Shown here: one piece after another, positions 19,033 through 42,894 of the stretch
How the letters are laid out: each line of letters starts with the position of its first letter
Position numbering within the stretch: position 1 is the stretch's first letter
Program-made: the position numbers and the translations under genes
The notes under the pieces: model-generated
Database searches by the model: none
The model's input: only the letters and a program-made list of their open reading frames with translations
What the model was told of the DNA's origin: nothing
Virus record (IMG/VR): IMGVR_UViG_3300032323_000716
Coordinates: 51,831 to 115,830 of that record
Length of the DNA: 64,000 nucleotides
DNA from: a virus
Reading direction: 5' to 3' (one strand)

Positions 19033-19036
19033 CTAA

Positions 19037-19837: not shown

Positions 19838-19840
19838 ATT

Positions 19841-20482: not shown

Positions 20483-20485
20483 TTT

Positions 20486-21175: not shown

Positions 21176-21202
21176 AAGAATATTTACCAATAAACGTAGC
21201 AC

Positions 21203-21209
21203 ATAAATA
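21203..21209 (+). promoter_or_regulatory. Late promoter for + strand glycan genes
   Basis: ATAAATA five bases before the ATG at 21215. The gap to the divergent - strand gene is only 39 bases. Confidence 0.75.
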
Positions 21210-21214
21210 TTCAT

Positions 21215-22662: not shown

Positions 22663-23455
22663 TTGGATATTTCTCAGTAAAGAAGGCAAAGATGAATATG
22701 TCAATATGTTTGCTATCGGCAGCGGCGGCCGTGTTATAAACACAGACGACTTTGATTATAGAGACAGCGATGACCCTATTGTTCTTAGAGGTATCTTAAA
22801 ACATAAGATAATGAAAAAATGTTGGCTGGATGGCCGAGATTTTTATTTTATGGATACAGGATATATGGGTAATCATCGAGGACCTTTAAATCCTATGGGA
22901 TGGAAATTTTATCATCGAATTGTTAAAAATGATTTGCAACACAGTGAGATGATCAAAAGACCAGATGATCGTTTTCGTAAGTTAGCCATTCCGTTACACG
23001 ATTGGAAAAAAGGCGGAAGAAAAATCTTAATTGCTAAGCCAGACGAAAAGCCTATGAAATTCTATGGTTTGGAATTAGACGAGTGGTTACAAGAAACTAT
23101 TAATACTATTAAAAAATATACTGATAGACCTATTGAAGTTAGAGAAAGAGTTAAGAGTAGAGTAGAACGTACTATTAATAGCACACTAAAAGAAGCACTA
23201 GATAACGATGTTCATTGCCTAGTTACTTTTAACAGTAATTCGGCCACAGAGGCAGTAATGTATGGATACCCGGCATTTACTTTATCGCAGACACATGCCG
23301 CATCTCCTGTGACTAGCCAAGACCTTAGTAAAATAGAAACACCTTTTTATCCAGACAAAGATTTAGTTTATGCATGGGCCTGCCACTTGGCCTATGGACA
23401 ATTTCATATAGATGAACTTAAAGATGGCTCAGCATGGAGAATTTTAAATGAGTGA
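22655..23455 (+). CDS. Capsule-type (GT-B-like) glycosyltransferase, paralogue 1
   Basis: 266 aa. The C-terminal half has the GT-B-like signature shared with the genes at 24914 and 28831: CLVTFNSNSATEAVMYGYPAF, then LSKIETPFYPDKD and a closing WACHLAYGQFHIDELKDG. Such motifs occur in capsule polysaccharide synthesis (KpsS-type) proteins. Overlaps both neighbours by 8 bases. Confidence 0.62.
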   Translation: MNNWIFLSKEGKDEYVNMFAIGSGGRVINTDDFDYRDSDDPIVLRGILKHKIMKKCWLDGRDFYFMDTGYMGNHRGPLNPMGWKFYHRIVKNDLQHSEMIKRPDDRFRKLAIPLHDWKKGGRKILIAKPDEKPMKFYGLELDEWLQETINTIKKYTDRPIEVRERVKSRVERTINSTLKEALDNDVHCLVTFNSNSATEAVMYGYPAFTLSQTHAASPVTSQDLSKIETPFYPDKDLVYAWACHLAYGQFHIDELKDGSAWRILNE

Positions 23456-24917
23456 TGGTTTTTTACCTGTTTATGTAGGTTATGATTATAGAGAAGATAT
23501 TGCATATAAAGTCTGCGAATATTCTATCTATAAAAATACGCCAAGTGCCGAAGTTAAGCCTCTTAAACAAGATCAATTAAGAAGAGACGGTTATTACACT
23601 AGAGAAGTTGATCCTTTAAGTTCTACAGAATTTACGTTTACTAGATTTTTAGTTCCACACCTTATGAATCTCGAAGGGTGGGCATTATTCTGTGACTGCG
23701 ACTTTGTATGGGATGGTGATATACAGAGAGTATTTGACCAGGCAGATTCTAGATACGCCGTTATGGTAGTTAAACATAATTACAATCCTACAAACACTGT
23801 TAAGATGGATGGCAAAACACAGAGTCAATATCCAAGAAAAAATTGGAGTTCAATGATATTATGGAATTGCAGCCATCCATCTAATGCCAAACTTACTTTA
23901 GAAGATATTAATAATCAGTCCGGTTCTTATTTGCATAGATTTCAATGGCTAGATGATTCAGAAATAGGCGAACTAAATGTTCAATACAATTTTTTAGTAG
24001 GACATAACAAGCCCGAACAATGCCACAGTGGTAAACCGGTAGCCTATCATTGGACTGAGGGAGGTCCTTGGTTCCCTCAATACATGGACTGCGAATATAA
24101 AACTATCTGGTATCAATATCTTATTGAATATTCTAACGAATTAAGCAGAAACAATGTAACTGCTTATTCTCCTATTACATGGGTTACTTCTCTTTCCAGA
24201 GAATATTGGGAATACTGCGCCAAACACACTATGCCTACATGGAGTAGACTGCCGGGAGATGTAGTAGTGGTATGGGACGATAAACCTGTAGATTTTCCTG
24301 TTGGCAGAACTTACAATTTTTGGAAAGAAGTGGCCAGTCCTGACGATCCGTGGGTCAAGGAAGGCATGGGCGGAAGCAAAGCCGATAGATTTTGGAAAAA
24401 AAGTCGTGTACAGGTATGGGCTGCAAGAAAATTCAAAGGCATAGTCATATGGATTGACGCTGACATAGCCGTAACTGCACCGTTGAGTCGTCCTCGAGCA
24501 TTGGAATTGTTACATCCGGGAAAAAATGTTTGGGGAACACTAGACTGCGGCAGTGATCATCCACAAAAGTATGATCACATTGATACTGGAATTGTATCTT
24601 TTAATTCAAGACATTTAGAATTTGATAAATTTATCAAAGAATATTCCTTAATGTGGTATAACGGAAAGATATATGAATGTAGACAACCGTATGATCACTA
24701 TGCAGTAACAATGCTAAGTAAAAAATGGCCTGTGCAAACTTTTGTACCGCATTGGTCTAAGTGGGCTTCGTCTACAGACGAATATCCAAACAGATTTAAC
24801 ATGCAGAACAGTTATGTCAAAGATTATTTCGAACATTATCTAGGAATAGAGAAAAAAGAACAATTAAAAAGACTAAACGGCGACGAAGTAGTTTCCAAAA
24901 AGGAAAAGAAAAAATGA
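23448..24917 (+). CDS. Two-domain glycosyltransferase
   Basis: 489 aa. The first half is GT8-like: VYVGYDYREDIAYKVCEYSI and WALFCDCDFVWDGD with a CDCD metal motif near residue 80. The second half is a DAD-type domain of the kind found at 25845, 26545 and in the 17407 fusion: IVIWIDADIAV, then HIDTGIVSFNSRHLEFDKF. Ends in a Lys-rich tail. It may add two successive sugars. Confidence 0.78.
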   Translation: MSDGFLPVYVGYDYREDIAYKVCEYSIYKNTPSAEVKPLKQDQLRRDGYYTREVDPLSSTEFTFTRFLVPHLMNLEGWALFCDCDFVWDGDIQRVFDQADSRYAVMVVKHNYNPTNTVKMDGKTQSQYPRKNWSSMILWNCSHPSNAKLTLEDINNQSGSYLHRFQWLDDSEIGELNVQYNFLVGHNKPEQCHSGKPVAYHWTEGGPWFPQYMDCEYKTIWYQYLIEYSNELSRNNVTAYSPITWVTSLSREYWEYCAKHTMPTWSRLPGDVVVVWDDKPVDFPVGRTYNFWKEVASPDDPWVKEGMGGSKADRFWKKSRVQVWAARKFKGIVIWIDADIAVTAPLSRPRALELLHPGKNVWGTLDCGSDHPQKYDHIDTGIVSFNSRHLEFDKFIKEYSLMWYNGKIYECRQPYDHYAVTMLSKKWPVQTFVPHWSKWASSTDEYPNRFNMQNSYVKDYFEHYLGIEKKEQLKRLNGDEVVSKKEKKK

Positions 24918-25852
24918 AATTTGTAGTCTACCAGGCATGCTTACCTGCGACAAATAAAAACCTAGAAAAAAATGAAATTTTAAATAGATTTCCTTTGGGC
25001 GTAGCCTATCTAGGTCAAGATGAAGTGATTATTCACGAACAAAGAAATCTTATAGAAGCAGATGTAGCCATGATGGTAGGTTGGGTACATGAAGATTCCG
25101 CTGATACTCCGCATTTGGTATTTCGTAAACAGGTTATCGATGATCAAAGAAAAAGAAATAAAAAAGTTCTATTAGCAGATTCAAATTTATTCCTTTACAA
25201 AGATAAGAGTAATCCTCATCATTATCTTAGATATAGTTACAATGGAATTTTCCCCAATACTGGAGAATATTGTGATCAAGATATTGATCCTAATAGATGG
25301 AAACACTTATCTCAGAACATAGGCATTGGTCTAAAAGACTATCGAACTAACGGTAATCATATTTTGTTATGTCTACAACGTAACGGAGGTTGGAGTATGG
25401 GCGGGTTTGATGTAGTCGACTGGACTGCACAAATTATAAAAGAATTAAGAAAGTACACTGACAGGGAAATAGTCATTAGAGCACACCCAGGAGATAAAAA
25501 ATCTAAAAATTATCTTTCTCCAAACAATCTAATTAAGAAAATTGGATTTTTAAAAGGGGTTCGTCTTAGTCGAGACGGTGTTGACCTATTAGGAGATCTC
25601 AAACATTGCTGGGCTGTAGTAAATTATAACTCTAGTCCTACTGTAGGAGCAGCCATTGAGGGATTCCCTGTGTTTGTAACAGATCCTAATCGTAGCCAAT
25701 GTAAAGAGATCGCAAATACTGATTTGTCAAAAATAGAAAATCCAGAGTTGCCTGACAGACAGCAATGGGCTGAACGTCTTGCCATGTTCCATTGGAACTT
25801 TAATGAAATAGCCAACGGTGAATGTTGGTCGCACATGAGAAAATATGCTTAA
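24914..25852 (+). CDS. Capsule-type (GT-B-like) glycosyltransferase, paralogue 2
   Basis: 312 aa. Same C-terminal block as paralogues 1 and 3: AVVNYNSSPTVGAAIEGFPVF, LSKIENPELPDRQQW and FHWNFNEIANGECW. An arginine/histidine site IVIRAHPGDKK precedes it, typical of the phosphate-binding region of this fold. ATGA overlap with the gene before, 8-base overlap with the one after. Confidence 0.68.
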   Translation: MKFVVYQACLPATNKNLEKNEILNRFPLGVAYLGQDEVIIHEQRNLIEADVAMMVGWVHEDSADTPHLVFRKQVIDDQRKRNKKVLLADSNLFLYKDKSNPHHYLRYSYNGIFPNTGEYCDQDIDPNRWKHLSQNIGIGLKDYRTNGNHILLCLQRNGGWSMGGFDVVDWTAQIIKELRKYTDREIVIRAHPGDKKSKNYLSPNNLIKKIGFLKGVRLSRDGVDLLGDLKHCWAVVNYNSSPTVGAAIEGFPVFVTDPNRSQCKEIANTDLSKIENPELPDRQQWAERLAMFHWNFNEIANGECWSHMRKYA

Positions 25853-26561
25853 TATCGAAGTTATTACCAGTTTTAATCAACATTACTACAACCTCATTGG
25901 TAAAGACGCTGTTTCTACTTGGTTAAAGTATTGGCCAAATGACATGTCTCTAACCTGTTATGTGGAAGAATTTAACTTACCACACGATTCTCGAATAAAA
26001 CAAATTTCTTTTGACACATTTGAAAAAGAATATTTTTTATTTCAAGAAACAGAGCATAAACAGGTTAAGAAATTCTCTAAAAAAGCATGGAGTTTTATAC
26101 ATGCCATGCAGCACTCCACTGCCGATAGGATTGTATGGCTAGATGCTGATGTTTTACATACCGACTACATTGAGAAAAAATTTCTCAATGGAATATTGCC
26201 TGATGATGTATTAAGTACCCACATGGGTGTAACATATTATTCAGCAAAAGACGGTACTCCTGGCAGGTGGTTTGTTCCTGAGACAGGGTTTTTTGCCGTT
26301 AATACCAAACATAAACTTTTTGATCAATTTAGATCAGAATATAGACGTCATTACGTAGAACGTGATCATACAAATATGAGAAGATTCTACGACAACGACG
26401 TATATGGATATGTATTTGAGAAATTAAAAGCCCCGGGTAATGATCTTTGTAAAGATTTTACCAAGGGCTACAAAACACCAATGAGGCACACTGTATTGGC
26501 ACCTTATATGCAACACTATAAGGCTAAGCACAGCAAAGCAGAATTTAATTCTGACGACTGA
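25845..26561 (+). CDS. DxD glycosyltransferase
   Basis: 238 aa. RIVWLDADVLHTDYI carries the metal-binding DAD at residues 100-102, and TGFFAVNTKHKLFDQF matches the equivalent piece in the other DAD proteins. The 3' end overlaps the convergent gene by 17 bases. Sugar and acceptor unknown. Confidence 0.75.
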   Translation: MLNIEVITSFNQHYYNLIGKDAVSTWLKYWPNDMSLTCYVEEFNLPHDSRIKQISFDTFEKEYFLFQETEHKQVKKFSKKAWSFIHAMQHSTADRIVWLDADVLHTDYIEKKFLNGILPDDVLSTHMGVTYYSAKDGTPGRWFVPETGFFAVNTKHKLFDQFRSEYRRHYVERDHTNMRRFYDNDVYGYVFEKLKAPGNDLCKDFTKGYKTPMRHTVLAPYMQHYKAKHSKAEFNSDD

Positions 26562-27369
26562 CCCAATACTTTTCAGTTCTGGGTCTTATAAAATCAGTAT
26601 TAAGACTTTTTCCGTAATTTTTTCTGTTACCTTTGAGGTGATCTAGGTACGCACCCCACTCACTGTTGATTAGAGGATGGCCTTCACCTTTAATCAAGCC
26701 TTTACACCAATCATTCCACTGCCATTCTGGATGTCTTAGTTTAACTTCTTTGCGAACTTCGTCAAAGACCCAGCAATCGTTCCATTCACTAAATTGGAAT
26801 AGTCTACCGCTATCATAGGCCTGTTGAAATTCAAACAAGAATTCTTGGGTAAAGGGATCTTTAAGATTCATAGAATACAAACCACACTCTGTAAACTTCT
26901 TTTCTCTACCTAAAAATCCTAGACCGATATGAGGTTGCGACATTTTTTCAATAAAATGATGCGGAATAGGTGTATGACATACCATATCAGCGTCCATCCA
27001 GAACAACAGATCAGCATCGGTGTTACGTGCCGCATGGCAGACCGAATAGATCTTATGGCTGAAGCGTATAGCATCCCATCTAAACCCAACTCCTGGCCTT
27101 TTTCCTTTCTTATCAGGAGGACCTGTAGGAACCTCACCTCTGGCTCGTGGATCGTTGCCCCATTTATTTTTAAATGCTACTAGATCCGGACAGGAATCGT
27201 GCAAATCTCTTACTATAAGATTTTCTGAAGACTCGGATATGCTATGATCTTGGGGATACGCATATAATGTAATATCTTCTGGCCAAGTTTTTAAGAATGT
27301 TTGAATCATTCTCTTGGCATATTTGTCATACCCTTCCTTATGGAAGGTAGTAACTACGGCTTTTTTCAT
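26545..27369 (-). CDS. DxD glycosyltransferase
   Basis: 274 aa. LLFWMDADMVCHTPIP holds DAD at residues 126-128; GLYSMNLKDPFTQEFLFEF is the shared downstream strand. An ATGA overlap links it downstream of gmd in a two-gene - strand operon. Confidence 0.76.
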   Translation of the reverse strand: MKKAVVTTFHKEGYDKYAKRMIQTFLKTWPEDITLYAYPQDHSISESSENLIVRDLHDSCPDLVAFKNKWGNDPRARGEVPTGPPDKKGKRPGVGFRWDAIRFSHKIYSVCHAARNTDADLLFWMDADMVCHTPIPHHFIEKMSQPHIGLGFLGREKKFTECGLYSMNLKDPFTQEFLFEFQQAYDSGRLFQFSEWNDCWVFDEVRKEVKLRHPEWQWNDWCKGLIKGEGHPLINSEWGAYLDHLKGNRKNYGKSLNTDFIRPRTEKYWVSRQN

Positions 27370-28349
27370 TTATTAGAATATCTCTTGATGTCTGCTTCAA
27401 CCATCATTTTAACAAGTCCGTCAAAATCTGTTCTACGCTTCCAACCTAGTACAGTTTCTGCCTTTGCAGGATTGCCGCATAGACTATGTAATTCTGCAGG
27501 ACGTACAAATGCCGGGTTGGTTTCAATATATTTTTGCCAATCTTCAATGCCAGCATGTTTAAATGCACGTTCTAATAAATCGCCAATTGTATACTGTACT
27601 CCGGTAGCAATAACATAGTCGCCTGGCTCTGGTTGTTGTAACATTAACCACATGGCTTCAACAAAGTCGCCAGCAAATCCCCAGTCACGTTTTGCATCTA
27701 GATTGCCTAAGACAATTTTATCAGCAAGGCCCATTTTGATTTTAGCAACGCCGTCTGTAATTTTACGTGTGACAAATTCTTTACCTCTAATTGGTGATTC
27801 GTGATTAAACAAAATACCATTTGATGCATGTAGGCTATAACTTTCACGGAAATTTACAGTCATCCAGTAGGCATACAACTTGGCAACACCGTACGGGCTA
27901 CGAGGCCAGAATGGAGTTTTTTCATCTTGCTGTCCTCCGGAGATTTCTATGCTGTTTCCAAACATTTCTGAGGTACTGGCTTGATAATATTTGGTATCAG
28001 GATTGTGTTGCTTGATAGCATTTAGGATATTTAACGGGCCAACCGCATTAACTTCGGTAGTTAGTTTATTGAGATCCCAACTGGCTCCAACGAAACTTTG
28101 TGCAGCAAGATTATAAAATTCACTTGGCTTTAAACTTTTGACCAAATGATTCATACAGCCGTCATCTGTGATATCGCCGGTGATCAATTCCACTTCATTT
28201 TCAATTCCTAAGAATTTAATATTGTCTAAATTTGGATTAGAATAACGTTTGACTAGCCCGTACACTTTATAATTTTTTTCTAAAAGTAATTTAGCAAGAT
28301 ACGGCCCATCTTGCCCTGTCATCCCTGTGACAAATGCGATTTTTTTCAT
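27366..28349 (-). CDS. gmd: GDP-mannose 4,6-dehydratase
   Basis: 327 aa. Converts GDP-mannose to GDP-4-keto-6-deoxymannose, the precursor of fucose, rhamnose-type and perosamine sugars. SDR signature TGMTGQDGPYLAKLL, NLAAQSFVGASW, catalytic YGVAK after STSEMFGN, and the family piece LFNHESPIRGKEFVTRKI. RDWGFAGDFVEAMW also fits. Length is near the usual 350-370 aa. Its leader has a late promoter. GC and codon choice look a little closer to bacterial genes than those of its AT-rich neighbours. Confidence 0.95.
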   Translation of the reverse strand: MKKIAFVTGMTGQDGPYLAKLLLEKNYKVYGLVKRYSNPNLDNIKFLGIENEVELITGDITDDGCMNHLVKSLKPSEFYNLAAQSFVGASWDLNKLTTEVNAVGPLNILNAIKQHNPDTKYYQASTSEMFGNSIEISGGQQDEKTPFWPRSPYGVAKLYAYWMTVNFRESYSLHASNGILFNHESPIRGKEFVTRKITDGVAKIKMGLADKIVLGNLDAKRDWGFAGDFVEAMWLMLQQPEPGDYVIATGVQYTIGDLLERAFKHAGIEDWQKYIETNPAFVRPAELHSLCGNPAKAETVLGWKRRTDFDGLVKMMVEADIKRYSNK

Positions 28350-29697: not shown

Positions 29698-30897
29698 ATG
29701 TCAAATTTGTCATATATAGAAGATATTTTTAATCAGTTCTACACTTTGATCTATCAACAACAACTGTTGATTTCAAAACAAGATCTTACGGCTACTTATA
29801 GCCTACATGAATATTGTGTGGACGACAATAAATTTCTCACATTGAATCAATCCAACTATCTTTTAAAGATTTTATCCAGATATCAATCCGAATCTGCTCA
29901 ACTAGGTTTAGATTATAAAGATAATCTAATTAGTCCACAATGGAAAAAAGTCTTTAGGACTTTGGATCTTTCTAAGAAAGTTTTTGTCGAACAAGACAAA
30001 GACAAAAAATGGTGGATTTGCCTCAAATTTCCATTTTCTCTCAAAGAAACTTTTGACAACGAAATTAAAAATGAAAGATCAAATAGTGATAACAATAAAT
30101 GGGATCACGACAGAAAATTAAGGTTAGTTGAAGTTTATAAACACAATGTAATGCACATAAACGAGTTTGTAAATCATCATGGATTTGACATAGATAACAC
30201 GTTTTTATCGCTGGTCAGCGAAGTTGAAGAGATCTGGCAGCAACAAGATTCTATCACTACCTATGCAGTATACGAAGACAACTCAGTTAGACTGGTCAAT
30301 GCAGTAGCCGATGCAGAGACCTATTTTAATGAGAGAAAAACTGGCATTTACGAAGAGGACATTTTCTTGGCAAAAACCATGGGATATCCACTGAGATTGT
30401 CAAAAATTGCTGATTCGGTTTTAGAGAACATTTGTTCAAAAAATACAAATCAGTTTTGGTTAAAAGAAAATAATAAATTTTTTGAACTTCATAACCAGGC
30501 AGGTGGTAAGTCTGCAATCCTTTTAGATAGGAATACCAAAGATATTGTAGGATGGTTGAAAAAATTCGTTTATGAAGCAGAAAATGCTGGTTGTAAAGAT
30601 CAGATTAAAATCTGTTTTAGAGAAAGCGGAGACGATCATTCTGGATTGAATTCTTGGATCAAAGAAAATAATCTAGGCGGAAAAGTCGAACAAGGTAAGA
30701 TTTTTATTTTTCTACAAAAGCCACCTAAGTGGTTGTTTAGAGACAAAATAGATGTTAAAATTGTAGGTACGAATTGCTATGTACCACCACTAAGCGATTC
30801 TATAACAGCACCGTGGTTATTTGCTCATCCTTGTCTATGTTATCTAGGAGACATAAAGCCAACGGTCATAAGGAACTATAAAATTGTCAGTGTGTAA
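29698..30897 (+). CDS. Conserved-looking protein upstream of uvsW, unknown function
   Basis: 399 aa from the ATG at 29698 (MSNLSYIEDIF). A frame start at 29683 lies inside the promoter and is rejected. The protein is helical at the N-terminus, with a charged centre and an alpha/beta C-terminal part (CKDQIKICFRESGDDHSGLN, KIFIFLQKPPKWLF, DVKIVGTNCYVPP). I recognise no family. The predicted transcription start falls at or next to the ATG, so the message may be leaderless. Overlaps uvsW by 14 bases. Confidence 0.7.
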   Translation: MSNLSYIEDIFNQFYTLIYQQQLLISKQDLTATYSLHEYCVDDNKFLTLNQSNYLLKILSRYQSESAQLGLDYKDNLISPQWKKVFRTLDLSKKVFVEQDKDKKWWICLKFPFSLKETFDNEIKNERSNSDNNKWDHDRKLRLVEVYKHNVMHINEFVNHHGFDIDNTFLSLVSEVEEIWQQQDSITTYAVYEDNSVRLVNAVADAETYFNERKTGIYEEDIFLAKTMGYPLRLSKIADSVLENICSKNTNQFWLKENNKFFELHNQAGGKSAILLDRNTKDIVGWLKKFVYEAENAGCKDQIKICFRESGDDHSGLNSWIKENNLGGKVEQGKIFIFLQKPPKWLFRDKIDVKIVGTNCYVPPLSDSITAPWLFAHPCLCYLGDIKPTVIRNYKIVSV

Positions 30898-32338
30898 GTT
30901 AGTAATCAAAGACGAAGTTAATATCAAAGTTGAAGGACTCAGTGTCGAAACTAGACGTAAAGTTGTCAACGCACTGAAATATGATCTGCCCTATGCAAGA
31001 CACATGCCGGCTTATAAATTAGGTAGATGGGACGGCACAAAAACATTTTTTGGTATTGGCGGAACTGGTTATCTTGCACATCTAGATGTTATACTTCCTA
31101 TTATAGAAGACTCTGGATACGACATTGAAGTTGAAGATTTACGTGAAAATAATTCACTAAAGTTTGTACCGATAGGAGAAAACTATTGGGCTGATCAAGG
31201 TAAGACTTGGCCTAAAGGTCATCCGCAAGCAGGCCAACCTATCGTGCTTAGAGATTATCAGTATGACGTTGTTAACAAGTTTTTAGAAAATCCACAATCA
31301 TTACAGGAGGTAGCAACAGGTGCAGGCAAAACAATTACTACAGCGACGTTGTCGCATCTTTGTGAACCGTATGGTCGTACGATGGTTATTGTTCCGAACA
31401 AATCGCTTGTTGTCCAAACTGAAGAAGACTACAAAAATCTAGGCCTTGATGTCGGTGTGTATTTCGGTGATAGAAAAGAATTAAATCGCACACATACTAT
31501 CTGCACTTGGCAGAGTTTAAATGTGTTAGAAAAGAAAGGCTATGACGATGATACGCTAACACTAGCAGAATTCTGCGAAGGTGTATGTGCTATTATTATT
31601 GACGAAGTTCATCAAGCCAAGGCAGATGTGTTAATGAGATTGGCTACACAAAACTTCCGTAACTGTCCTATACGGTGGGGACTCACAGGCACAATACCTA
31701 GAGAAAAGTGGGAATTTCAAAGCCTATTAGCCAGCATAGGACCTGTAATTAATCGTGTCAGTGCCCATGATCTGCAACAGAAAGATGTGTTGGCTCAATT
31801 AGATATACAGGTATTGCAGACCACTGATGTACAAGTTTTTAGATCCTATCAAGAAGAATATACCTGGTTAGTCAGTGACGAAAGGCGGCTAGATTGGATT
31901 GCACAAAAAATACAATCTATCTCAGAAAACGGTAATACTCTTGTTCTAGTAGGAAGAATAGATACTGGAGACAAGATAATAAAAAGAATTCCCGATGCAG
32001 TTTTTATCAATGGTTCTGTAAAATTAGACGACAGGAAAGAAGAATATGATGAGATTAAAACGAGCGATGGCAAGATTATTGTGGCGACTTATGGTGTGGC
32101 CGCTGTGGGTATTAATATCCCTAGGATTTTTAATCTGGTTCTTTTGGAGCCCGGAAAAAGCTTTGTCAGGGTTATACAAAGTATTGGGCGAGGCATTAGA
32201 CGAGCAGAAGACAAAGACTTCGTACAAATCTGGGACATCACTTCGACCTGTAAGTATGCCAAACGACACCTTACGGAACGTAAGAAGTATTACAAAGAAG
32301 CCAAATATCCATTTACATTAACTAAAATTATTCTATGA
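30884..32338 (+). CDS. uvsW: UvsW RNA/DNA helicase
   Basis: 484 aa. Superfamily 2 helicase that drives branch migration and ends origin R-loops in T4. N-terminal DNA-binding region ends in RHMPAYKLGRWDG, as in T4 UvsW. Motif I is ATGAGKT, motif II is IIIDEVH, and motif VI is QSIGRGIRR. The start is a TTG at 30884, 10 bases after AAGGA; a GTG at 30890 is the alternative. No ATG is available near the conserved N-terminus. Confidence 0.93.
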   Translation: MSVCKLVIKDEVNIKVEGLSVETRRKVVNALKYDLPYARHMPAYKLGRWDGTKTFFGIGGTGYLAHLDVILPIIEDSGYDIEVEDLRENNSLKFVPIGENYWADQGKTWPKGHPQAGQPIVLRDYQYDVVNKFLENPQSLQEVATGAGKTITTATLSHLCEPYGRTMVIVPNKSLVVQTEEDYKNLGLDVGVYFGDRKELNRTHTICTWQSLNVLEKKGYDDDTLTLAEFCEGVCAIIIDEVHQAKADVLMRLATQNFRNCPIRWGLTGTIPREKWEFQSLLASIGPVINRVSAHDLQQKDVLAQLDIQVLQTTDVQVFRSYQEEYTWLVSDERRLDWIAQKIQSISENGNTLVLVGRIDTGDKIIKRIPDAVFINGSVKLDDRKEEYDEIKTSDGKIIVATYGVAAVGINIPRIFNLVLLEPGKSFVRVIQSIGRGIRRAEDKDFVQIWDITSTCKYAKRHLTERKKYYKEAKYPFTLTKIIL

Positions 32339-34131: not shown

Positions 34132-34393
34132 ACCTGGTGCTACTTATACCTACGAACACCAAGATGGTGTTGTGTATGCTACCGAATCTGGTACAACAGA
34201 TAAAAAGGTTATTGGCTGGGACTATAAATTTGATCCACGAACCGGCGACGGTAGACCGTTACGCGAACATATTTTAGAAGATAAAATGTGGGGAGATATT
34301 CGTCGGATGGCTCTAACCAATCCTGCTTTACAAAAGGCGTTGGATCGTGCTATAATGCTTTATCACCTGAGTAAAGAAAATGGGAAAAAATAA
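34118..34393 (+). CDS. Small protein, unknown function
   Basis: 91 aa from the ATG at 34118 (MGNLKPGATYTYEH). A beta-rich front (VVYATESGTTDKKVIGWDY) and helical back (LQKALDRAIMLYHL). A very similar opening occurs in many T4-like aquatic phages from memory, always near replication genes. Function unknown. Confidence 0.65.
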   Translation: MGNLKPGATYTYEHQDGVVYATESGTTDKKVIGWDYKFDPRTGDGRPLREHILEDKMWGDIRRMALTNPALQKALDRAIMLYHLSKENGKK

Positions 34394-34859
34394 ACACGTA
34401 GACCTATTCAAAGATATGATACCCGCAGTGGACATGGGTATCAAAGAATTGTGGGATGCCTCTCCAGAAGAAGGTCGCAAAGAGATCAAAGGCGATCTAT
34501 GGACTCTCAATAGATATATCAGTAGTTGCAAAACCAATAACAGAGAACTACAAGAACATTATGTTCTAACTACTAACGAGTTTTACAATAAAAATTGGGC
34601 GGGAATACAACATCATCCCAAATTGCAATGGCTCACGTTAGTAATGTGCGGCCATGAAAGTAAAAAAACTCAATTCCATGAATGGATTCCGTTAAAAGTT
34701 CATAAGAATAAAAAAGAAGAATTTTTAGCAGAACAATTTCCTAATATGAAAATGGCTGACATTGAAACACTAGCAGCCATTACAACTGATGAAGAAATCA
34801 AAGAATATGCTCAGAGCCTTGGTTGGGACAAAAAACAAATCAATGGAATTAAACTATAA
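34380..34859 (+). CDS. Possible clamp-loader small subunit gp62-like
   Basis: 159 aa. Position in the replication operon, size, and the shape of the protein suggest T4 gp62, which bridges the gp44 ATPase ring. The supporting pieces are LWTLNRYISSCK, HHPKLQWLTLVMCGH followed by a KKTQFHEW segment, and a closing DIETLAAITTDEEIKEYAQSLGW that parallels the T4 C-terminus. No gp44 or gp45 is in this window. Sequence evidence is weak. Confidence 0.45.
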   Translation: MGKNKHVDLFKDMIPAVDMGIKELWDASPEEGRKEIKGDLWTLNRYISSCKTNNRELQEHYVLTTNEFYNKNWAGIQHHPKLQWLTLVMCGHESKKTQFHEWIPLKVHKNKKEEFLAEQFPNMKMADIETLAAITTDEEIKEYAQSLGWDKKQINGIKL

Positions 34860-35526
34860 GTGTGAATACTGTCAAAAACTTTTTGCCAAAGAAAAAACTT
34901 TGGTTGTGCATATCTGTGAACAAAAACGTAGACATATCAGTCGAAATGAAAAACATGTACAAGCAGGACTTTTGACCTTTCAGAAATTTTATGACTTCGC
35001 ACAAAAAGGTAAAACAAAAAAAACATTTGACGATTTTGTAGATAGTCCGTATTACACAGCATTTGTAAAATTTGGCAGTTTTCTTGTTAACACTAATCCT
35101 ATCTATCCAGAAATGTTTATAGACTATGTAGTAAAAAGCGGCGTTAAAATAGATCATTGGTGCAGAGATGAACTATATGACACCTACATCAGCGAGTTGA
35201 TCAAGAACGAACCGGCCGACGGTGCAATACAAAGATCTATAACTACTATGATGGATTGGTCTGATAAAAACAATGCTCCTTGGGAACACTATTTTGCATA
35301 TGTAAATTTAAACAGAGCCACCCATGATATTAAAGAAGGATTAATAAGTCCTTGGCTAGTATTAAATACAAAGTCCGGTAAAGAGATGCTTCAACGTATG
35401 AATGATGAGCAGTTAGAAATCATTGGTGCTGTCATAGATCCGCAGTATTGGATAAGAAAGTTTAAATCTTTGCCGGCAGACATTGAATTGATCAAAGACG
35501 TAGTCAAGGAGGCTAAGATACTATAA
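34843..35526 (+). CDS. C2H2 zinc-finger protein, unknown function
   Basis: 227 aa from the ATG at 34843. The N-terminus has CEYCQKLFAKEKTLVVHIC, a single C2H2-like finger whose last ligand is Cys, followed by a basic EQKRRHISR. The remainder is helical with YTAFVKFGSFL and DIKEGLISPWLVLN. It overlaps the gene before by 17 bases and the one after by one. A nucleic-acid-binding role is inferred from the finger alone. Confidence 0.65.
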   Translation: MELNYKCEYCQKLFAKEKTLVVHICEQKRRHISRNEKHVQAGLLTFQKFYDFAQKGKTKKTFDDFVDSPYYTAFVKFGSFLVNTNPIYPEMFIDYVVKSGVKIDHWCRDELYDTYISELIKNEPADGAIQRSITTMMDWSDKNNAPWEHYFAYVNLNRATHDIKEGLISPWLVLNTKSGKEMLQRMNDEQLEIIGAVIDPQYWIRKFKSLPADIELIKDVVKEAKIL

Positions 35527-35777
35527 TGAGCAAGAGAAAAATTGTTGAAGAAAAGATTAAAGAATTAGAAGAAGCCATTGAAGAAGAGACTCTTGCTGAA
35601 AATGAAGAATACATCTCTAGAGATGATTTAGATATTGAAGTTCGGGTAATGCAAGATGAACCGGTGATTATGGTACAGTTTTCTGGCTTTGAAGATCACG
35701 AAGATGCAGAAGAATATGCACAATTTCTAGCAGATAATTTACCGTTATTGTTGTTTGAAACTACAAGGATACAGTAA
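35526..35777 (+). CDS. Small acidic coiled-coil protein
   Basis: 83 aa. A Lys/Glu helix at the start (KIKELEEAIEEETLAENEE), then a beta-type part with MVQFSGFEDHEDAEEYAQFL. TAATG overlaps on both sides. Function unknown. Confidence 0.6.
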   Translation: MSKRKIVEEKIKELEEAIEEETLAENEEYISRDDLDIEVRVMQDEPVIMVQFSGFEDHEDAEEYAQFLADNLPLLLFETTRIQ

Positions 35778-36355
35778 TGCCAGATATTGATATAGATTTC
35801 GTTGATAGAGATCAGGCACTGAGTTTATTCAAACACAAAGTGGCTAGTCGAGTTGACAATCAAAGTCTAGTTAAACATAATACAGGTGTATATTTTCATC
35901 AAGTGCCTGTAGATTTAAAAACTGGATTATGTGAGATTCCCTACGAGCAAGCAGAAGATCAAGGCTTCTTTAAAATTGACTTTCTTAATGTAGGAATCTA
36001 TAAAGGTGTTCGAGATGAAAATCATTTGTTGCAATTAATGAACACAGAACCATTGTGGGATTTATTAGAACAAGACGAGTTTAGCAATCTGTTATTTCAT
36101 GTCAATGGTCACGGTAACGTTTTAAGAGCCATGAAGCCTGCAAGCATAGAACAATTGGCTTCTGTGTTAGCAGTGATCAGACCTGCTAAAAGATACTTAA
36201 TTGGTAAAGACTGGAACACAGTCATGTCTGAAGTATGGGTCAAGCCTGAGAATGATGAATACTACTTTAAGAAAAGTCATGCTATTGCTTACGCTACGGC
36301 CATAGTAGTACAGATGAATTTAATTTGCGAAGGCATATCTTACGGATACAATTAA
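35777..36355 (+). CDS. Miniature DNA polymerase III alpha-like protein
   Basis: 192 aa. It carries, in the right order, short pieces matching the catalytic palm and fingers of bacterial family C polymerase: PDIDIDF (residues 2-8), FFKIDFLNVGIYKGV (64-78), LLFHVNGHGNVLRAMKP with LAVIRPAKR (105-139), and KKSHAIAYA (165-173). The two Asp of the first motif and the Asp of KIDFL would be the metal ligands. The intervening domains, PHP, tau-binding and OB parts of the 1100-residue enzyme are gone. Seen in sequence: motif order. Inferred: descent from DnaE. Function unknown. Confidence 0.6.
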   Translation: MPDIDIDFVDRDQALSLFKHKVASRVDNQSLVKHNTGVYFHQVPVDLKTGLCEIPYEQAEDQGFFKIDFLNVGIYKGVRDENHLLQLMNTEPLWDLLEQDEFSNLLFHVNGHGNVLRAMKPASIEQLASVLAVIRPAKRYLIGKDWNTVMSEVWVKPENDEYYFKKSHAIAYATAIVVQMNLICEGISYGYN

Positions 36356-36864
36356 TGGCAAAAATAAAAAACAAATTACCAATCACTGTTTCTTGGGAAG
36401 GTCCAGAAAAAAGAGAACTGTATCTCGATTCAATGATAAAAGAAAATAATTGGAATATCGGAGTTGAAATAGGTGTACGATTTGGCCGAACCTTATTTTA
36501 TCTTTTAGATAACAATCCTAATTTAAAAATGTACGCTGTGGACATCGACACTAGTCAATTTTATAATCAACTAGTAAGCGCACGATACGCAGATAGATTA
36601 GTTGTATTAGAAGGAGACAGTTCGACACTGGCTTCAACTATTAAAGAAACTGTTGATTTTGTTTTTATAGATGGCGCACATTCTAAAAAGGCAGTGATCA
36701 AAGATATAACTGAATATAGAAAAATACTTAAAGATGATAGAGGATTGACTGGTCATGATATAGACTATCCGTCTATACAGTCTGCACTATCTGATCTAGG
36801 TATTAATTATGATGTAGGTCCAGATAATGTTTGGACTTTTAAATCAACCGGGCTTTCTAATTAA
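36355..36864 (+). CDS. Class I methyltransferase-like protein
   Basis: 169 aa from the TAATG overlap at 36355. GVEIGVRFGRTLFYLL is the SAM loop, MYAVDIDTSQF the acidic second strand, and VDFVFIDGAHSKKAVIKDI the fourth, as in the Methyltransf_24 type. Its 3' end overlaps the convergent gene by 21 bases. Target unknown. Confidence 0.72.
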   Translation: MAKIKNKLPITVSWEGPEKRELYLDSMIKENNWNIGVEIGVRFGRTLFYLLDNNPNLKMYAVDIDTSQFYNQLVSARYADRLVVLEGDSSTLASTIKETVDFVFIDGAHSKKAVIKDITEYRKILKDDRGLTGHDIDYPSIQSALSDLGINYDVGPDNVWTFKSTGLSN

Positions 36865-37215
36865 CGTAATAGACTTACGTTTAATTCTTTTTACAATAAT
36901 ATCATTTAGGCTTGTGCAAGGCCCAAAAAGCACCTTAACGTCTTTGGTGCTAAAGTTTCTTATTGAATAGCGAAACTCCGTAATTTCTTTGTTTAGAAAA
37001 ATATTGATAGGAATTTGACGATTGCTTTCCCACCACCAAACTTCACCTAATTCTAAAAATCTCTGTTTTTCCCAGTCTGTACGTATACTAGCATAATCAT
37101 ACATGCTAGTAACCTGAGAATCTTGATTAATGACAATGCCTACATATTCTGCATTGACGTGATTTAGCACGGTTATGAATGGAAAATTTTCTTGTAGGTT
37201 TTCAGTTATACGCAT
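36844..37215 (-). CDS. Conserved protein, unknown function
   Basis: 123 aa. Beta-rich (FITVLNHVNAEYVGIVINQD) with an aromatic ELGEVWWWESNRQIPINIFL stretch and a basic C-terminus (IIVKRIKRKSITLIR). A lone - strand gene in a + strand block. Its start region overlaps the late promoter of the divergent gene. Confidence 0.65.
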   Translation of the reverse strand: MRITENLQENFPFITVLNHVNAEYVGIVINQDSQVTSMYDYASIRTDWEKQRFLELGEVWWWESNRQIPINIFLNKEITEFRYSIRNFSTKDVKVLFGPCTSLNDIIVKRIKRKSITLIRKPG

Positions 37216-37224: not shown

Positions 37225-37242
37225 TTGCTAGGGTTCCAAATT

Positions 37243-38313
37243 ATGCAATTAATTTCAGTTTATTTATATCCAAACAGGGTCGATGCTTATACAAATTATC
37301 TGGCCTCTTGGAAAACAGAGAGGTATCGTAAAGTGTACAATCGCAATCTAAAAATATTCCGCGGTGCAGATAATCGCATCGATATACAAATACGCAATTC
37401 AGACGAAAAGCCGTATGATGTATCAATCTATGATGATTTTGTGTTTAATCTTGTAAACAAAGAAACTAAAGAATTAATCCTTAGCAAAGCCTGTACAGTT
37501 CAAAGTGCCGCTACTGGAAAAGTATATGTAACCCTAACTGAAAATGAATTAACAGATATAGAGCCTGGATTTTATCAGTACTCTGTTATCGGTCAAACAC
37601 GCAGCGACAGCGATGCTAGTTTAGTCACAGCAAGAACTCCTTTTTATATCGATTCACAATACGGTGCATTTGCCACCATTGAAATCTTTGGTGATGTTTT
37701 TGGCGAACCTCTTGATAGTGTTAAGATTGATGAATTTAGAGATTTTAGAGTTAACAACGCTAGCCAAGAAAAATATCTACTATCAAGTATTATAGATGCA
37801 AGACCTAATCTTAGCACACCTCAATCTTTGCATACTTTTCAATTTTACTTTACCAATTACACAGGCACTGTAGTTATCCAAGGCAGTCAAAGTGATGGAG
37901 GTAATCCACAAGTATGGGTAGATCTAGATACTGAAGAGATGGTTAATCAATCAACGCCAACTTATAAAAATATCACAGGCAAGTATAATTGGTTTAGGAT
38001 TAGATTTGGTAATACATTTAATAATTCGGCTAGATTCGTAATTGGACAAACATTTAATGGTTCATATGCAGTTAGTGTCTACGACGGCGGGTCTGGATAT
38101 ACTGTAGGACAACAATTGGTAATCACTGGAGACCTATTAGGGGGCTTTTCTGGTGTAAACGACTTGAATATCACTGTAACTTCTGTGAATGTAAACGGTG
38201 CAGTGACTGGAATAACATTCACCGGCGTTTCAGCACCAAACGATCGAAGTTATGTTTTGGGTGCGACTGGAACTCCTACCGCAGGGGCTATTGACAAAAT
38301 CTTATACAGATAG
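37243..38313 (+). CDS. Virion structural protein (tail or baseplate type)
   Basis: 356 aa from the ATG at 37243; a TTG at 37225 is less likely. All-beta protein. The C-terminal 80 residues hold a phage-virion repeat type: YDGGSGYTVGQQLVITGDLLGG, then NDLNITVTSVNVNGAVTG and a final GTPTAGA turn. This repeat is common in tail and fibre proteins of marine T4-like phages. The N-terminal domain (VSIYDDFVFNLVNKETKEL) resembles beta-sandwich tail proteins. A late gene lying inside the replication block. Confidence 0.7.
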   Translation: MQLISVYLYPNRVDAYTNYLASWKTERYRKVYNRNLKIFRGADNRIDIQIRNSDEKPYDVSIYDDFVFNLVNKETKELILSKACTVQSAATGKVYVTLTENELTDIEPGFYQYSVIGQTRSDSDASLVTARTPFYIDSQYGAFATIEIFGDVFGEPLDSVKIDEFRDFRVNNASQEKYLLSSIIDARPNLSTPQSLHTFQFYFTNYTGTVVIQGSQSDGGNPQVWVDLDTEEMVNQSTPTYKNITGKYNWFRIRFGNTFNNSARFVIGQTFNGSYAVSVYDGGSGYTVGQQLVITGDLLGGFSGVNDLNITVTSVNVNGAVTGITFTGVSAPNDRSYVLGATGTPTAGAIDKILYR

Positions 38314-38325
38314 TATAATCTGTGT

Positions 38326-39348
38326 ATGACGTTAGTCGTAGACAAATTTAGATCTCTCTTACCTCGACTCAAAACTAGCCCTAGCGGCTGGATGAGTTTC
38401 AATGCTCCTTGTTGTCATCATCGAGGACATCGAACCGACACTAGAAAACGTGCCGGTGTTGTTTTAACCGAAGGTATTATTTACAACTGTTTTAATTGTA
38501 AATTTAGTACAGGATGGACTCCTGGATCGACACTATCTCCTAAGTTTAAAACTCTTTGTCAATGGTTGGGTGCAAATGATGATACAATCAAAGAGTTAAC
38601 CTTTGAAGCCTTAAAGACTGAAGGCGAAGGATATGTTCCTACAACATTCGTTGAACAAAAGATAGATTTTGAAACCAAAGAGTTACCAGAAGGCTCGATG
38701 CCGTTGCTAGACTGGGTCGAAAGTGCGTATTATCAAGATTTAGAAGATCTATTAGATCCTGCTATTTCTTATCTAGTAAGCAGAGGATTTGATCCGTTCG
38801 ATGGAAATTTTTATTGGAGTCCTGCTCCTGGTTACGAAAACAGAGTAATCATACCTTTTTTCTACGAAGGAAAGATAGTAGGCAACACAGCCAGAAAAAC
38901 CACGCAAGGCCGTCCTAAATATCTATCAGATCAACACCCCTTCTTTGTGTTTAACACTGATGCACAGGTAGAAAATCATAGATACGTATTTGTAGTAGAA
39001 GGACCGTTTGATGCTTTATCAATAGGTGGCGTAGCACTACTCACTAACGAAGTCAGCGAGCAACAATCGAGAATAATTAATAATATGAACAAGGATGTCA
39101 TAGTAATTCCTGATCAAGATAAAGCAGGGTTAACTTTGATAGATCAAGCGGCAAAATTAGGTTGGAAGGTTGCTTTTCCAACATGGGATGAATCAATCAA
39201 AGACTGTGCGGATGCTGTGTCCAAATATGGTAAATTGTTTGTTATAGTAGATGCTATTAAAACAGCCACAGACAATCCTGTCAAGATTGAAATAGAGAAA
39301 CGAAAATTGCTAAACAAATTTACCGAGTTGGAGAAAAACGATGTTTAA
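38326..39348 (+). CDS. gp61: DNA primase gp61
   Basis: 340 aa, as in T4 (342 aa). Makes RNA primers for lagging-strand synthesis with gp41. Zinc-binding front: CCHHRGH (residues 29-35) with CFNC (55-58). TOPRIM core: YVFVVEGPFDALSIGG with the Glu, and DVIVIPDQDKAG with DxD. The 8-base 3' overlap leads into a small gene. Confidence 0.9.
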   Translation: MTLVVDKFRSLLPRLKTSPSGWMSFNAPCCHHRGHRTDTRKRAGVVLTEGIIYNCFNCKFSTGWTPGSTLSPKFKTLCQWLGANDDTIKELTFEALKTEGEGYVPTTFVEQKIDFETKELPEGSMPLLDWVESAYYQDLEDLLDPAISYLVSRGFDPFDGNFYWSPAPGYENRVIIPFFYEGKIVGNTARKTTQGRPKYLSDQHPFFVFNTDAQVENHRYVFVVEGPFDALSIGGVALLTNEVSEQQSRIINNMNKDVIVIPDQDKAGLTLIDQAAKLGWKVAFPTWDESIKDCADAVSKYGKLFVIVDAIKTATDNPVKIEIEKRKLLNKFTELEKNDV

Positions 39349-39457
39349 AGCCTTGAAAGATTTTTTTACTTGGCCATGGAGACGATATCAACAAAATCGT
39401 GCATGGAAGAAAAGATTAGAAGAACTTAAGAAAAGAGACCCGTTCATTTACAAATGA
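39341..39457 (+). CDS. Small basic protein between primase and carbamoyltransferase
   Basis: 38 aa, too short for usual gene callers. It starts MFKALKDFFTWPWRRYQQ and ends KKRDPFIYK, a Trp-rich amphipathic front and basic back. It overlaps the primase by 8 bases and the next gene by 4 (ATGA), which is strong evidence for translation. A membrane-edge or protein-binding role is possible. Function unknown. Confidence 0.7.
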   Translation: MFKALKDFFTWPWRRYQQNRAWKKRLEELKKRDPFIYK

Positions 39458-40422
39458 TTACTTGGGGAATTAATGCTCTTAATCATGATGCTAGTATTGC
39501 TGTTGTTAATAATGGCGAGTTAAGATTTTGGAAACGCAGTTCTGAATACACAGGTGTTGCTGGAGATCAATATCTGTGTTCTAGAATTTATCATGATGCT
39601 CTTAACGCCAGTAATGGGCGAGGACCAGACGAAATAGTTTGGTATGAACATCCTCTTTGGAAAAAATGCAGACAGTTCTATGCAGGACAGTTCTATGCAG
39701 CCTTTGATTTAAATGATATGCCTAGTAGGTATCTTAAAAAATTAGGTTGGCCTAATTTTAAGATGTCGTATATCAGTCATCATCTAAGTCATGCTGCCGC
39801 AGGTTACTATACATCTCCTTTTAAAGAGGCTTCTGTAGTTGTTCTAGATGCAATTGGCGAGTGGGAAAGTATGTCAATATGGAAAGCCCAAGACATGAAA
39901 CTTACTAGAGTTTTCAGCAGATCTTACCCTACTAGTCTTGGTATATTTTATTCGGCATTTACAGACTTAATTGGTCTAAAGCCGTTAGGAGAAGAACATG
40001 TATTGCAGAAACTTAGCGAACAAGGCGATCCTTCTAGATATAGAGAACAGGTTAAAAAATATTGGAGAGACGATCTAACTCTTAGATATAATTTACACAA
40101 GGGTGTTTGGAATTGGTCCGATCTCGACATGGATGATCAAGGTAAAAAAGATCTTGCTGCCGCAGTACAAGAACAGTTTGAATTACAGGCACAGAAAGTA
40201 TTCGACTGGGCAAAGAAACTTGCACCTAGTGATAATCTAGTTTATATGGGCGGTTGTGCAATGAACAGTAAATTCAATAACTCCCTGTCAGATCAATATA
40301 AAAAGATTTGGAGTTTGTCTATACCCGGAGATGCCAGCAGTGCTATAGGGGCTGCACTGTATAAACAACAGAAAAGAGTTACTTTACCTTTTTCTCAGGT
40401 AAAGCACATAGGGATTAAATGA
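39454..40422 (+). CDS. Carbamoyltransferase (NodU/CmcH type), short form
   Basis: 322 aa. Transfers carbamoyl groups to sugars or small molecules. N-terminal ASKHA-like start GINALNHDASIAVVNNGEL, the metal/ATP site SHHLSHAAAGYYTSPF, VVVLDAIGEWES and YMGGCAMNSKFN. The usual 570-aa enzyme has a C-terminal YrdC-like catalytic half that is missing here. A target on phage nucleotides or glycans is possible. Short forms of this kind occur in other T4-like aquatic phages from memory. Confidence 0.83.
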   Translation: MITWGINALNHDASIAVVNNGELRFWKRSSEYTGVAGDQYLCSRIYHDALNASNGRGPDEIVWYEHPLWKKCRQFYAGQFYAAFDLNDMPSRYLKKLGWPNFKMSYISHHLSHAAAGYYTSPFKEASVVVLDAIGEWESMSIWKAQDMKLTRVFSRSYPTSLGIFYSAFTDLIGLKPLGEEHVLQKLSEQGDPSRYREQVKKYWRDDLTLRYNLHKGVWNWSDLDMDDQGKKDLAAAVQEQFELQAQKVFDWAKKLAPSDNLVYMGGCAMNSKFNNSLSDQYKKIWSLSIPGDASSAIGAALYKQQKRVTLPFSQVKHIGIK

Positions 40423-40523
40423 TCAAAAATTTATACACTTATGGCAATTCTCATTATTATAAGGCTTTACTTTCTATACCAAGAAAGTGTATAATAGCAA
40501 AAGGATATGTATTTCATGATTGA
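40419..40523 (+). CDS. Possible 34-aa ORF overlapping the gp41 promoter
   Basis: Starts in an ATGA overlap with the carbamoyltransferase (MIKNLYTYGNSHYYK). The second half coincides with the gp41 promoter. The overlap favours it, while the length and promoter argue against it. Confidence 0.3.
   Translation: MIKNLYTYGNSHYYKALLSIPRKCIIAKGYVFHD
40466..40495 (+). promoter_or_regulatory. Sigma70-type promoter for gp41
   Basis: TTTACT, 18-bp spacer, TATAAT, about 40 bases before the gp41 start. Confidence 0.6.
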
Positions 40524-40535
40524 TTACGTTATAAC

Positions 40536-41957
40536 ATGATAAAAGACTACGGATACGAAGAACAAAAACTATATTTAGAATTGATGTTGGCAGACGCTGA
40601 GGTGTTTGTTCGTTGTCAAGGAATTTTTGATCACACATTGTTTGATCGCAAACTACAAGATGCCGCTGAATTCATCAACGAATATGCTAAACAATATTCT
40701 GTATTGCCCGACTACGAAATGGTCAATGCTACTTGCAAGATACAGTTGAGAAAACCTGATGACGCCAAAGAAGGACATCTCGAATGGCTCATGGATGAGT
40801 TTGAAAATTTTACAAGACACAAAGCATTAGAACGTGCTATCATTGGATCTGCAGATCTTTTAGAAAAGAAAGATTATGGCGCAGTAGAAGTCATGATCAA
40901 AGAAGCAGTACAGATAGGTCTTGCCAAAGACATGGGCACAGACTATTTTGCAGATCCTCGTTCTAGATTGATGCGTATCAAAGATAAGAATGGACAGATT
41001 AGCACTGGGTGGCCTAGTCTTGATCGTAGACTGTTTGGTGGCATGAACAGGGGCGAACTGAATATCTTTGCAGGTGGTTCAGGAGCAGGTAAATCTTTGT
41101 TCTTGGCTAACCTTGGTGTGAACTGGGCATTGAATGGTTTGAATGTTGTTTATCTAACATTAGAACTTTCTGAAGATCTAGTTTGTATGCGTATGGATGC
41201 AATGACCACTGGCGTACATACTAAAGAGATTTTTAAAGAATTAGATGATGTAGAAATGAAGGTTAGAATCATCGGAAAGAAATCAGGAGCATATCAGGTC
41301 AAATATATGCCTTCCGGTAAAACTGCCAATGACATTCGTGCTTATCTCAAAGAATACGAAATTAAAACTGGACGTAAAGTTGATGTGCTGTTAGTAGACT
41401 ATTTGGACTTGCTCATGCCAATCAGTAAAAAGATTAGTCCTGCAGATTTGTTTATCAAAGACAAATATGTGTCAGAAGAACTGCGTAATCTTGCAGTTGA
41501 AAGACAATGCATCTTAGTTACTGCGGCACAGTTGAACCGTGGTGCTGTTGAAGAAGTTGAGTTTGATCACAGTCATATTTCGGGCGGTCTGTCAAAGATT
41601 CAAACTGCGGATAACGTGTTTGGTATCTTTACCAGCCGTGCAATGCGTGAACGTGGTCGTTATCAAATACAATTAATGAAAACTCGTTCATCTAGTGGTG
41701 TGGGACAAAAAGTGGATCTAGAATTTAATTTAGAGACACTTAAGATTAGCGATCTGCCAGAAGATGAACAAGAAAGTCATAATGGTGCCGGAAGAGGCGC
41801 CAGCAGTATTATTGAAAATATCAAGCGTAAGACAGAAGTACAAAGAGAAGAACCAGGCGAAGGAGCCCCTATTGGCAAGGTCCGCGGACAGGTAGAAAGT
41901 ACAAAGTTACGCGAAATCTTGAATAAAATAGGCACAGATGAAGACGCACCGTTTTGA
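40536..41957 (+). CDS. gp41: Replicative DNA helicase gp41
   Basis: 473 aa, as in T4 (475 aa). DnaB-family hexameric helicase that unwinds the fork and binds the gp61 primase. N-terminal helical domain, then TGWPSLDRRLFGGMNRGEL and Walker A GGSGAGKS (residues 180-187). Walker B is VDVLLVDYLDLL, and the H4 motif is ISGGLSKIQTADNVF. The end overlaps the next gene by 20 bases. Confidence 0.95.
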   Translation: MIKDYGYEEQKLYLELMLADAEVFVRCQGIFDHTLFDRKLQDAAEFINEYAKQYSVLPDYEMVNATCKIQLRKPDDAKEGHLEWLMDEFENFTRHKALERAIIGSADLLEKKDYGAVEVMIKEAVQIGLAKDMGTDYFADPRSRLMRIKDKNGQISTGWPSLDRRLFGGMNRGELNIFAGGSGAGKSLFLANLGVNWALNGLNVVYLTLELSEDLVCMRMDAMTTGVHTKEIFKELDDVEMKVRIIGKKSGAYQVKYMPSGKTANDIRAYLKEYEIKTGRKVDVLLVDYLDLLMPISKKISPADLFIKDKYVSEELRNLAVERQCILVTAAQLNRGAVEEVEFDHSHISGGLSKIQTADNVFGIFTSRAMRERGRYQIQLMKTRSSSGVGQKVDLEFNLETLKISDLPEDEQESHNGAGRGASSIIENIKRKTEVQREEPGEGAPIGKVRGQVESTKLREILNKIGTDEDAPF

Positions 41958-42180: not shown

Positions 42181-42894
42181 ATGCGTCTACGAGAATTAAA
42201 CGAACGTGCAGAATTTGTCACAGTTAACAGAACCCTAAATCCAAAGATTTGGAAGGGCGATCAATTAGATCCCGCTGTTAAATCTAAATTAATAGAAATC
42301 GCTCGTGCCTTTGAGGAATTCGTCGGAATTGATCTAGAGGTAGAAGATTATACTATCACTGGTTCTAATGCCAACTATACCTGGACACAGTATTCAGATC
42401 TTGATCTACATCTTATTGTTCCCGGCACTCCATCAGATGAACAGCGTGAGTTGTTCAATGCTAAAAAAGCCCTATGGGCAGAACAGCACAATATCACTAT
42501 TAAAAGTCTGCCTGTAGAATGTTATGTTCAAGGCGAAGACGAACCTCATCATTCAACCGGTGTTTATAGTATTGCTAAAGATCGCTGGTTAATAGAGCCT
42601 AAGAAGGTCGAACCCAAGATCGACGATGCTTCAGTAGAAGCCAAAAAAGATTCAGTGATGCATGATGTTGAAATAGCCATGCTTAGTAAAGATCTAAACA
42701 AGTTACGCATAGTCAAAGAAAAAATAACTAAGATGCGCAAAGCAGGTTTAGAAAGAGCAGGAGAATGGTCTGTAGAAAACGTAGTATTCAAGATACTACG
42801 AAATCTCGGTATTATAGATCAACTCAGTGAAAAAATAAGAGAGCTCGAAGATCAAGAACTCTCTTTGGAACAACAGACTAACGTTATTAATTAA
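42181..42894 (+). CDS. Pol-beta-type nucleotidyltransferase with possible capsid tag
   Basis: 237 aa. A minimal nucleotidyltransferase site: ITGSNANYTWTQYSDLDLHLIV, with GS at 61-62 and DxD at 73-75, then a third acidic strand PVECYVQGED. Helical C-terminal half rich in Lys and Glu. The N-terminus MRLRELNE then R gives LNE|R, which fits the (L/I)xE prohead-protease rule. This could mark a packaged enzyme, but MRLREL is only weakly CTS-like. It may act on tRNA or DNA ends, which is speculation. Confidence 0.65.
   Translation: MRLRELNERAEFVTVNRTLNPKIWKGDQLDPAVKSKLIEIARAFEEFVGIDLEVEDYTITGSNANYTWTQYSDLDLHLIVPGTPSDEQRELFNAKKALWAEQHNITIKSLPVECYVQGEDEPHHSTGVYSIAKDRWLIEPKKVEPKIDDASVEAKKDSVMHDVEIAMLSKDLNKLRIVKEKITKMRKAGLERAGEWSVENVVFKILRNLGIIDQLSEKIRELEDQELSLEQQTNVIN

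Follow-up and report, generated by a model that had tools for sequence, protein, structure and literature searches.

Cyanobacterial DnaE is a polymerase chain that comes from two genes and is split by an intein. Family C polymerases are also found in phages, and the full-length DnaE-like enzymes of Streptomyces, Mycobacterium, Bacillus and PB1-like phages align over residues 1–833 of E. coli DnaE, PHP and thumb included, and are mostly encoded by a single gene. Closest to the locus described here is the split minimal DNA polymerase III alpha of T4-like (group 2.2) jumbo phages (Iyer et al., 2021; PMC7824862). The window that we analyzed, 64,000 nucleotides from the 115.8 kb IMG/VR record of an uncultured phage, encodes a 192-aa protein of the same type as the C-terminal Mg2+/template-binding protein of that system (PHROG_11778; hereafter the C-half), for which the N-terminal partner (the N-half) is PHROG_11127. 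We equate it with the published split proteins by phage group, description and profiles and not by a match of accessions. The split kind has therefore already been published and the present protein is a further member of it; what we add is the exact break point, the excision of the thumb, the DnaE residues that were lost, a near-obligate pairing of the two halves, and their occurrence in Alishewanella phages of 141 kb.

The C-half gene sits in a T4-like replication operon setting, as the earlier note had recognized, with a gp61 primase and a gp41 helicase in nearly every relative. The features of the region, with their conservation among relatives, are as follows.

30884..32338, + strand: UvsW-like helicase, upstream in the same replication region (sequence by eye and CBB gene order)
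34380..34859, + strand: conserved protein phrog_11758 (125/128 relatives)
34789..35526, + strand: C2H2 zinc-finger-like protein of 245 aa, phrog_11058, upstream of the C-half (133/134 relatives)
35526..35777, + strand: small acidic protein of 83 aa, variable (similarity in 76/141 relatives)
35777..36355, + strand: C-terminal (Mg2+/template-binding) half of split minimal DNA polymerase III alpha, the C-half, 192 aa (profile matches, motifs)
36844..37215, − strand: small conserved convergent gene phrog_11637 (opposite strand in 120/121 relatives)
37225..38313, + strand: gene annotated as virion structural protein, phrog_14467 (107/111 relatives)
38326..39348, + strand: T4 gp61-like DNA primase (Toprim) (95/96 relatives)
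40536..41957, + strand: T4 gp41-like DnaB replicative helicase (87/87 relatives)

The order phrog_11758, zinc finger phrog_11058, small acidic/coiled-coil protein, C-half, convergent phrog_11637, phrog_14467, gp61 and gp41 is kept in 95–100% of relatives, the acidic gene excepted, and recurs in cultured phages; the convergent arrangement of phrog_11637 is the same in Atu_ph07, CBB, Phosso, PA5oct, SCTP-2 and an Alishewanella phage. The ATG of the C-half shares one base with the stop codon of the acidic protein gene, so these two genes are probably translationally coupled. The T4-like replication genes found were gp41, gp61, gp32 and a RecA-like gene, with UvsW identified by sequence and gene order only. 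Other genes were noted in passing. A SAM methyltransferase (PF13578; 36355–36864, + strand) is inserted after the C-half, ahead of the convergent gene, and occurs in 4 of 121 relatives only. A protein with a carbamoyltransferase N-terminal domain (PF02543, E = 2e-28; 39454–40422, + strand) lies between primase and helicase; a longer NodU-like protein was recognized by eye elsewhere in the same record (positions 39264–41096 of the record). Two genes past gp41 is a second nucleotidyltransferase-domain protein (PF01909, E = 2e-4; 42181–42894, + strand) with the motif GSNANYTWTQYSDLDLHL. A sugar/glycan gene block at 16634–28349 includes a UDP-glucose/GDP-mannose dehydrogenase and a GDP-mannose 4,6-dehydratase, identified by domain search, and probable glycosyltransferases identified by eye.

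The translation of 35777–36355 contains, in the order that the earlier note had given, the four motifs PDIDIDF, FFKIDFLNVG, NGHGNVLRAMKP...LAVIRPAKR and KKSHAIAYA. Single-sequence Pfam and PDB searches with the C-half returned no family C match, and the relationship became visible through profiles. PHROG_11778, annotated as DNA polymerase, matched with an E-value of 1.6e-67, and weak matches were obtained to the full-length DNA polymerase phrog_405 and to TIGR00594 (Pol III alpha), the latter at E ≤ 0.01 for 93 of 111 C-half relatives (best 3.1e-6). A profile built from these 111 relatives was compared with one of ten full-length DnaE proteins, giving 96.5% probability (E = 7.7e-10) over 103 colinear columns that cover E. 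coli DnaE 510–640. This comparison, which the earlier note had suggested as a check of its proposed family C homology, bore the homology out and paired H34 with H511, K66 with K553, D68 with D555 and R135 with R639. The local alignment spans C-half residues 33–136, and the PDIDIDF and KKSHA ends were placed by motif. Matches to a tRNA hydroxylase (8fhc, E = 0.0097) and to arginine succinyltransferase models fell below any cut-off, had no catalytic motifs in common with the C-half and were set aside as chance. Judged by its sequence, the C-half is a conserved fragment of a family C (DnaE-type) polymerase. Its D7 pairs with D405 of E. coli DnaE, a position where DnaE has Asp and PolC has Asn (PMC3919608), which makes the C-half DnaE-like.

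The Asp triad of family C catalysis, D401/D403/D555 in E. coli (PMC3919608; PMC8485763), is represented by D3, D5 and D68, each invariant in 111 of 111 relatives; the three catalytic Asp residues predicted earlier are thus all in place. Further counterparts of DnaE residues, with roles taken from PMC8485763 and PMC3919608, are K66 (K553), H34 (H511), R135-P136 (R639-P640), H168 (the steric gate H760) and Y172 (Y764). D3, D5, D7, H34, K66, D68, R135, P136, K165, H168 and Y172 are invariant in all 111 C-halves. Among 13 divergent C-halves, 13 of the 16 positions mapped to DnaE-invariant residues are likewise invariant, against a background of 29 invariant columns in 192 (hypergeometric p = 6e-10). 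All 58 N-halves keep E88, W118, G119, G121 and R122-G123-S124-S125. The median dN/dS is about 0.13 for the C-half and 0.32 for the N-half. These values point clearly to purifying selection on both halves, and its focus on catalytic positions makes a metal-dependent reaction likely.

The earlier note had described a protein that lost everything between its catalytic motifs, which holds in part. The 67 residues that lead from D68 to R135 align colinearly with the 84 of DnaE D555–R639, and two blocks are indeed missing. In DnaE, the palm-fingers region comprises residues 281–432 and 510–810, and the thumb residues 433–509 (PMC4703070). The spacing of 27 residues between D7 and H34, compared with 106 between D405 and H511, implies that about 79 residues are gone, a loss that corresponds almost exactly to the whole thumb (77 residues). 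Similarly, R135 and F164 are 29 residues apart in the C-half vs. 117 in DnaE, so that about 88 residues of the fingers are absent; this block holds Y686-Q687-E688 and R709, which are invariant in the ten full-length DnaE proteins. By DnaE alignment and spacing, the C-half has no PHP, thumb, HhH, clamp motif, OB or tail, and in this it is also unlike the full-length phage enzymes. The nucleotide-binding GRGS motif is not in the C-half chain and is invariant in the separate N-half. Two further residues invariant in the ten DnaE proteins are lost: the N-half has Glu/Asp in place of R390, and neither half reaches the position of R396, which lies between them. What has been kept is the metal site, the triphosphate motif and the nucleotide-facing helix.

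The upstream part of the palm survives as a second gene elsewhere in this phage group, which is the other respect in which "lost everything" did not hold. N-halves, recovered by a PF07733 search, are 155–197 aa long, carry a GRGSS motif and match PF07733 at approximately positions 12–98 only. The family is PHROG_11127, and it includes both CBB_328, reported as a 172-aa truncated Pol III alpha (PMC5259590), and Atu_ph07 gp316, noted in an earlier genome paper (PMC6102473). Their C-terminal end reads ...WGVGRGSSVASYVLYLIGVHKVDSxKYxLxxxEFLK*, and their profile matches DnaE residues 320–393 with 97.6% probability. The two halves are complementary: the N-half covers 361–436 and the C-half 577–681 of full-length phrog_405, and on M. 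tuberculosis DnaE the N-half aligns up to residue 407 and the C-half from residue 415. The palm is broken where the N-half ends in ...EFL(K/N) (E. coli 393) and the C-half begins with (M)PDIDIDF (E. coli 400, with MPD at 399–401), with no overlap. Neither fusion nor adjacency of the halves was found within 6 kb of 143 C-half and 80 N-half loci. Cyanobacterial DnaE resembles this arrangement in being made from two genes; the phage break differs in lying before PDxDxDF, in the lack of intein sequence, in the minimal size of both halves and in that their association would be non-covalent. Rejoining by an intein was rejected because the N-halves end 33–41 residues past the start of GRGSS, never more than 41, and the C-halves begin at or near PDIDIDF. 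A DnaQ-type exonuclease was considered as a fixed partner and rejected, PF00929 being absent or weak in several members.

The C-half is present nearly full length in at least 63 phage records and at more than 550 IMG/VR loci. Carriers include RaK2, 121Q, PBECO4, CBB, GAP32, PA5oct, Atu_ph07, XacN1, SCTP-2 and Phosso, as well as Stenotrophomonas, Salmonella and Alishewanella phages. An N-half accompanies it in 62 of the 63 phage records, the sole exception being the 109 kb record of Klebsiella phage W12-3; the 63 include 7t3, Munch and fENko-Kae01, and N-halves were found in all three. Among IMG/VR contigs longer than 170 kb that carry a C-half, 9 of 11 have an N-half. The three Alishewanella phages with circular records of 141 kb, well below jumbo size, encode both halves, the N-half in a divergent form. 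The distance between the halves is 11–12 kb in these phages and approximately 11–15 kb when XacN1 and the Stenotrophomonas phages are included, and it exceeds 180 kb in Atu_ph07 and Phosso; both halves are still retained. In CBB and Atu_ph07, the N-half gene is followed downstream by a small gene, a gene annotated as head morphogenesis and a clamp loader gene. A clamp loader gene is near the N-half in XacN1 too, and PA5oct has a chaperonin gene at the corresponding place. One contig (G020) contains two N-half copies, at 22658–23005 and 94662–95009, with identical scores and opposite orientation, which may represent an inverted repeat of the assembly.

Against the pairing stands the absence of the N-half from the window's own 115.8 kb record by PF07733, N-half alignment and a GRGS motif scan, and from two C-half contigs of 199 and 280 kb. 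These observations would favor a C-half that works alone as a minimal enzyme. We regard this as very improbable: the triphosphate-binding GRGS is found only in the N-half, both halves occur in 62 of 63 phage records and are known from nine long IMG/VR relatives, and the records that lack an N-half may be fragments. The window's own record is almost certainly a fragment. No family B polymerase was found in it either, and by inspection the genes in its remaining 52 kb are mainly structural; with replication genes missing, the absence of the N-half there is uninformative, and we infer that this phage carries its N-half outside the sequenced fragment. The "new minimal enzyme" of the earlier note was right in spirit, except that the C-half is half an enzyme and that a split minimal Pol III alpha was already known from a 2021 paper (PMC7824862).

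The short length of the C-half and the loss of several DnaE-invariant residues could also suit a catalytically dead protein that serves as scaffold or regulator at the fork, or as a decoy binding the host clamp or replicase. A conserved peptide near the C-terminus, QMNLI (residues 179–183), looks like a sliding-clamp binding peptide. However, the part of the C-half containing it corresponds to the helix that follows H760/Y764 in DnaE, and the genuine clamp motif of DnaE, at 920–924 (PMC4703070), is far beyond the region kept in the C-half. The catalytic Asp residues, K66 and H168 are invariant in the 111 relatives and in the 13 divergent ones, and a dead protein would have no need of them. We found no good evidence for the regulator or host-clamp decoy that had been proposed, and consider this explanation improbable. 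Nor is the C-half a collapsed relic as first suggested, given active-site residues that are invariant in more than 100 phage sequences and a partner gene that has the missing nucleotide-binding motif.

A family B polymerase was found in 6 of 6 complete phages checked and in 5 of 7 IMG/VR relatives, and its exonuclease and polymerase motifs are intact in the five relatives checked; the split enzyme is therefore not a replacement. The reading that we prefer, and hold to be rather probable on the basis of comparative sequence data, is that a DnaE-type core is spread over two genes whose products would form a thumbless two-polypeptide nucleotidyltransferase/polymerase, accessory to the family B replicase. 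The N-half would provide the nucleotide/triphosphate-binding part of a pol-beta-like palm (GRGSS), and the C-half the metal-binding Asp residues, the base of the fingers and the steric-gate helix. The two would probably associate non-covalently, in the absence of an intein, into a minimal heterodimer. It would most likely work next to the family B replicase at the phage fork as an accessory DNA polymerase that acts distributively, e.g., by extending gp61 primers over a short distance or by filling gaps; the location of the C-half beside primase and helicase, and of the N-half near the clamp loader, would fit either task. Tentatively, the completed palm may constitute a thumbless, PHP-less family C polymerase acting as a second dedicated polymerase of the fork, e.g., in primer extension like eukaryotic Pol alpha. 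Iyer et al. suggested one-strand synthesis or repair for the split enzyme (PMC7824862).

Several points count against a split polymerase. R390, R396, Y686-Q687-E688 and R709 are gone, the lack of a thumb means that primer-template DNA must be held by other means, and relatives with an intact family B polymerase have no obvious need of a second one. The main rival, a template-independent activity, draws on some of the same facts: the halves could form a family C-derived nucleotidyltransferase that performs terminal transfer or tagging of DNA, RNA or protein. Such other activities are common among pol-beta-fold proteins. That fold was assigned to the split enzyme by Iyer et al. (PMC7824862). Invariant metal and nucleotide sites, combined with a missing thumb, much of the fingers missing and the loss of R390, Y686-Q687-E688 and R709, would be in keeping with it. 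The retention of the steric-gate helix, the RP motif and H760, however, together with a gene context of replication, speaks against it, and we judge the rival unlikely.

If the two-polypeptide enzyme is active, the pair would show that catalysis requires only a small part of a replicative family C polymerase, and that two chains can together make up a family C active site. The C-half is small, abundant and present in the culturable coliphages 121Q and PBECO4, which makes the question directly testable. Iyer et al. propose the split enzyme as a model of the ancestral enzyme (PMC7824862). T4-like phages would, should the pair prove active, run two unrelated polymerases.
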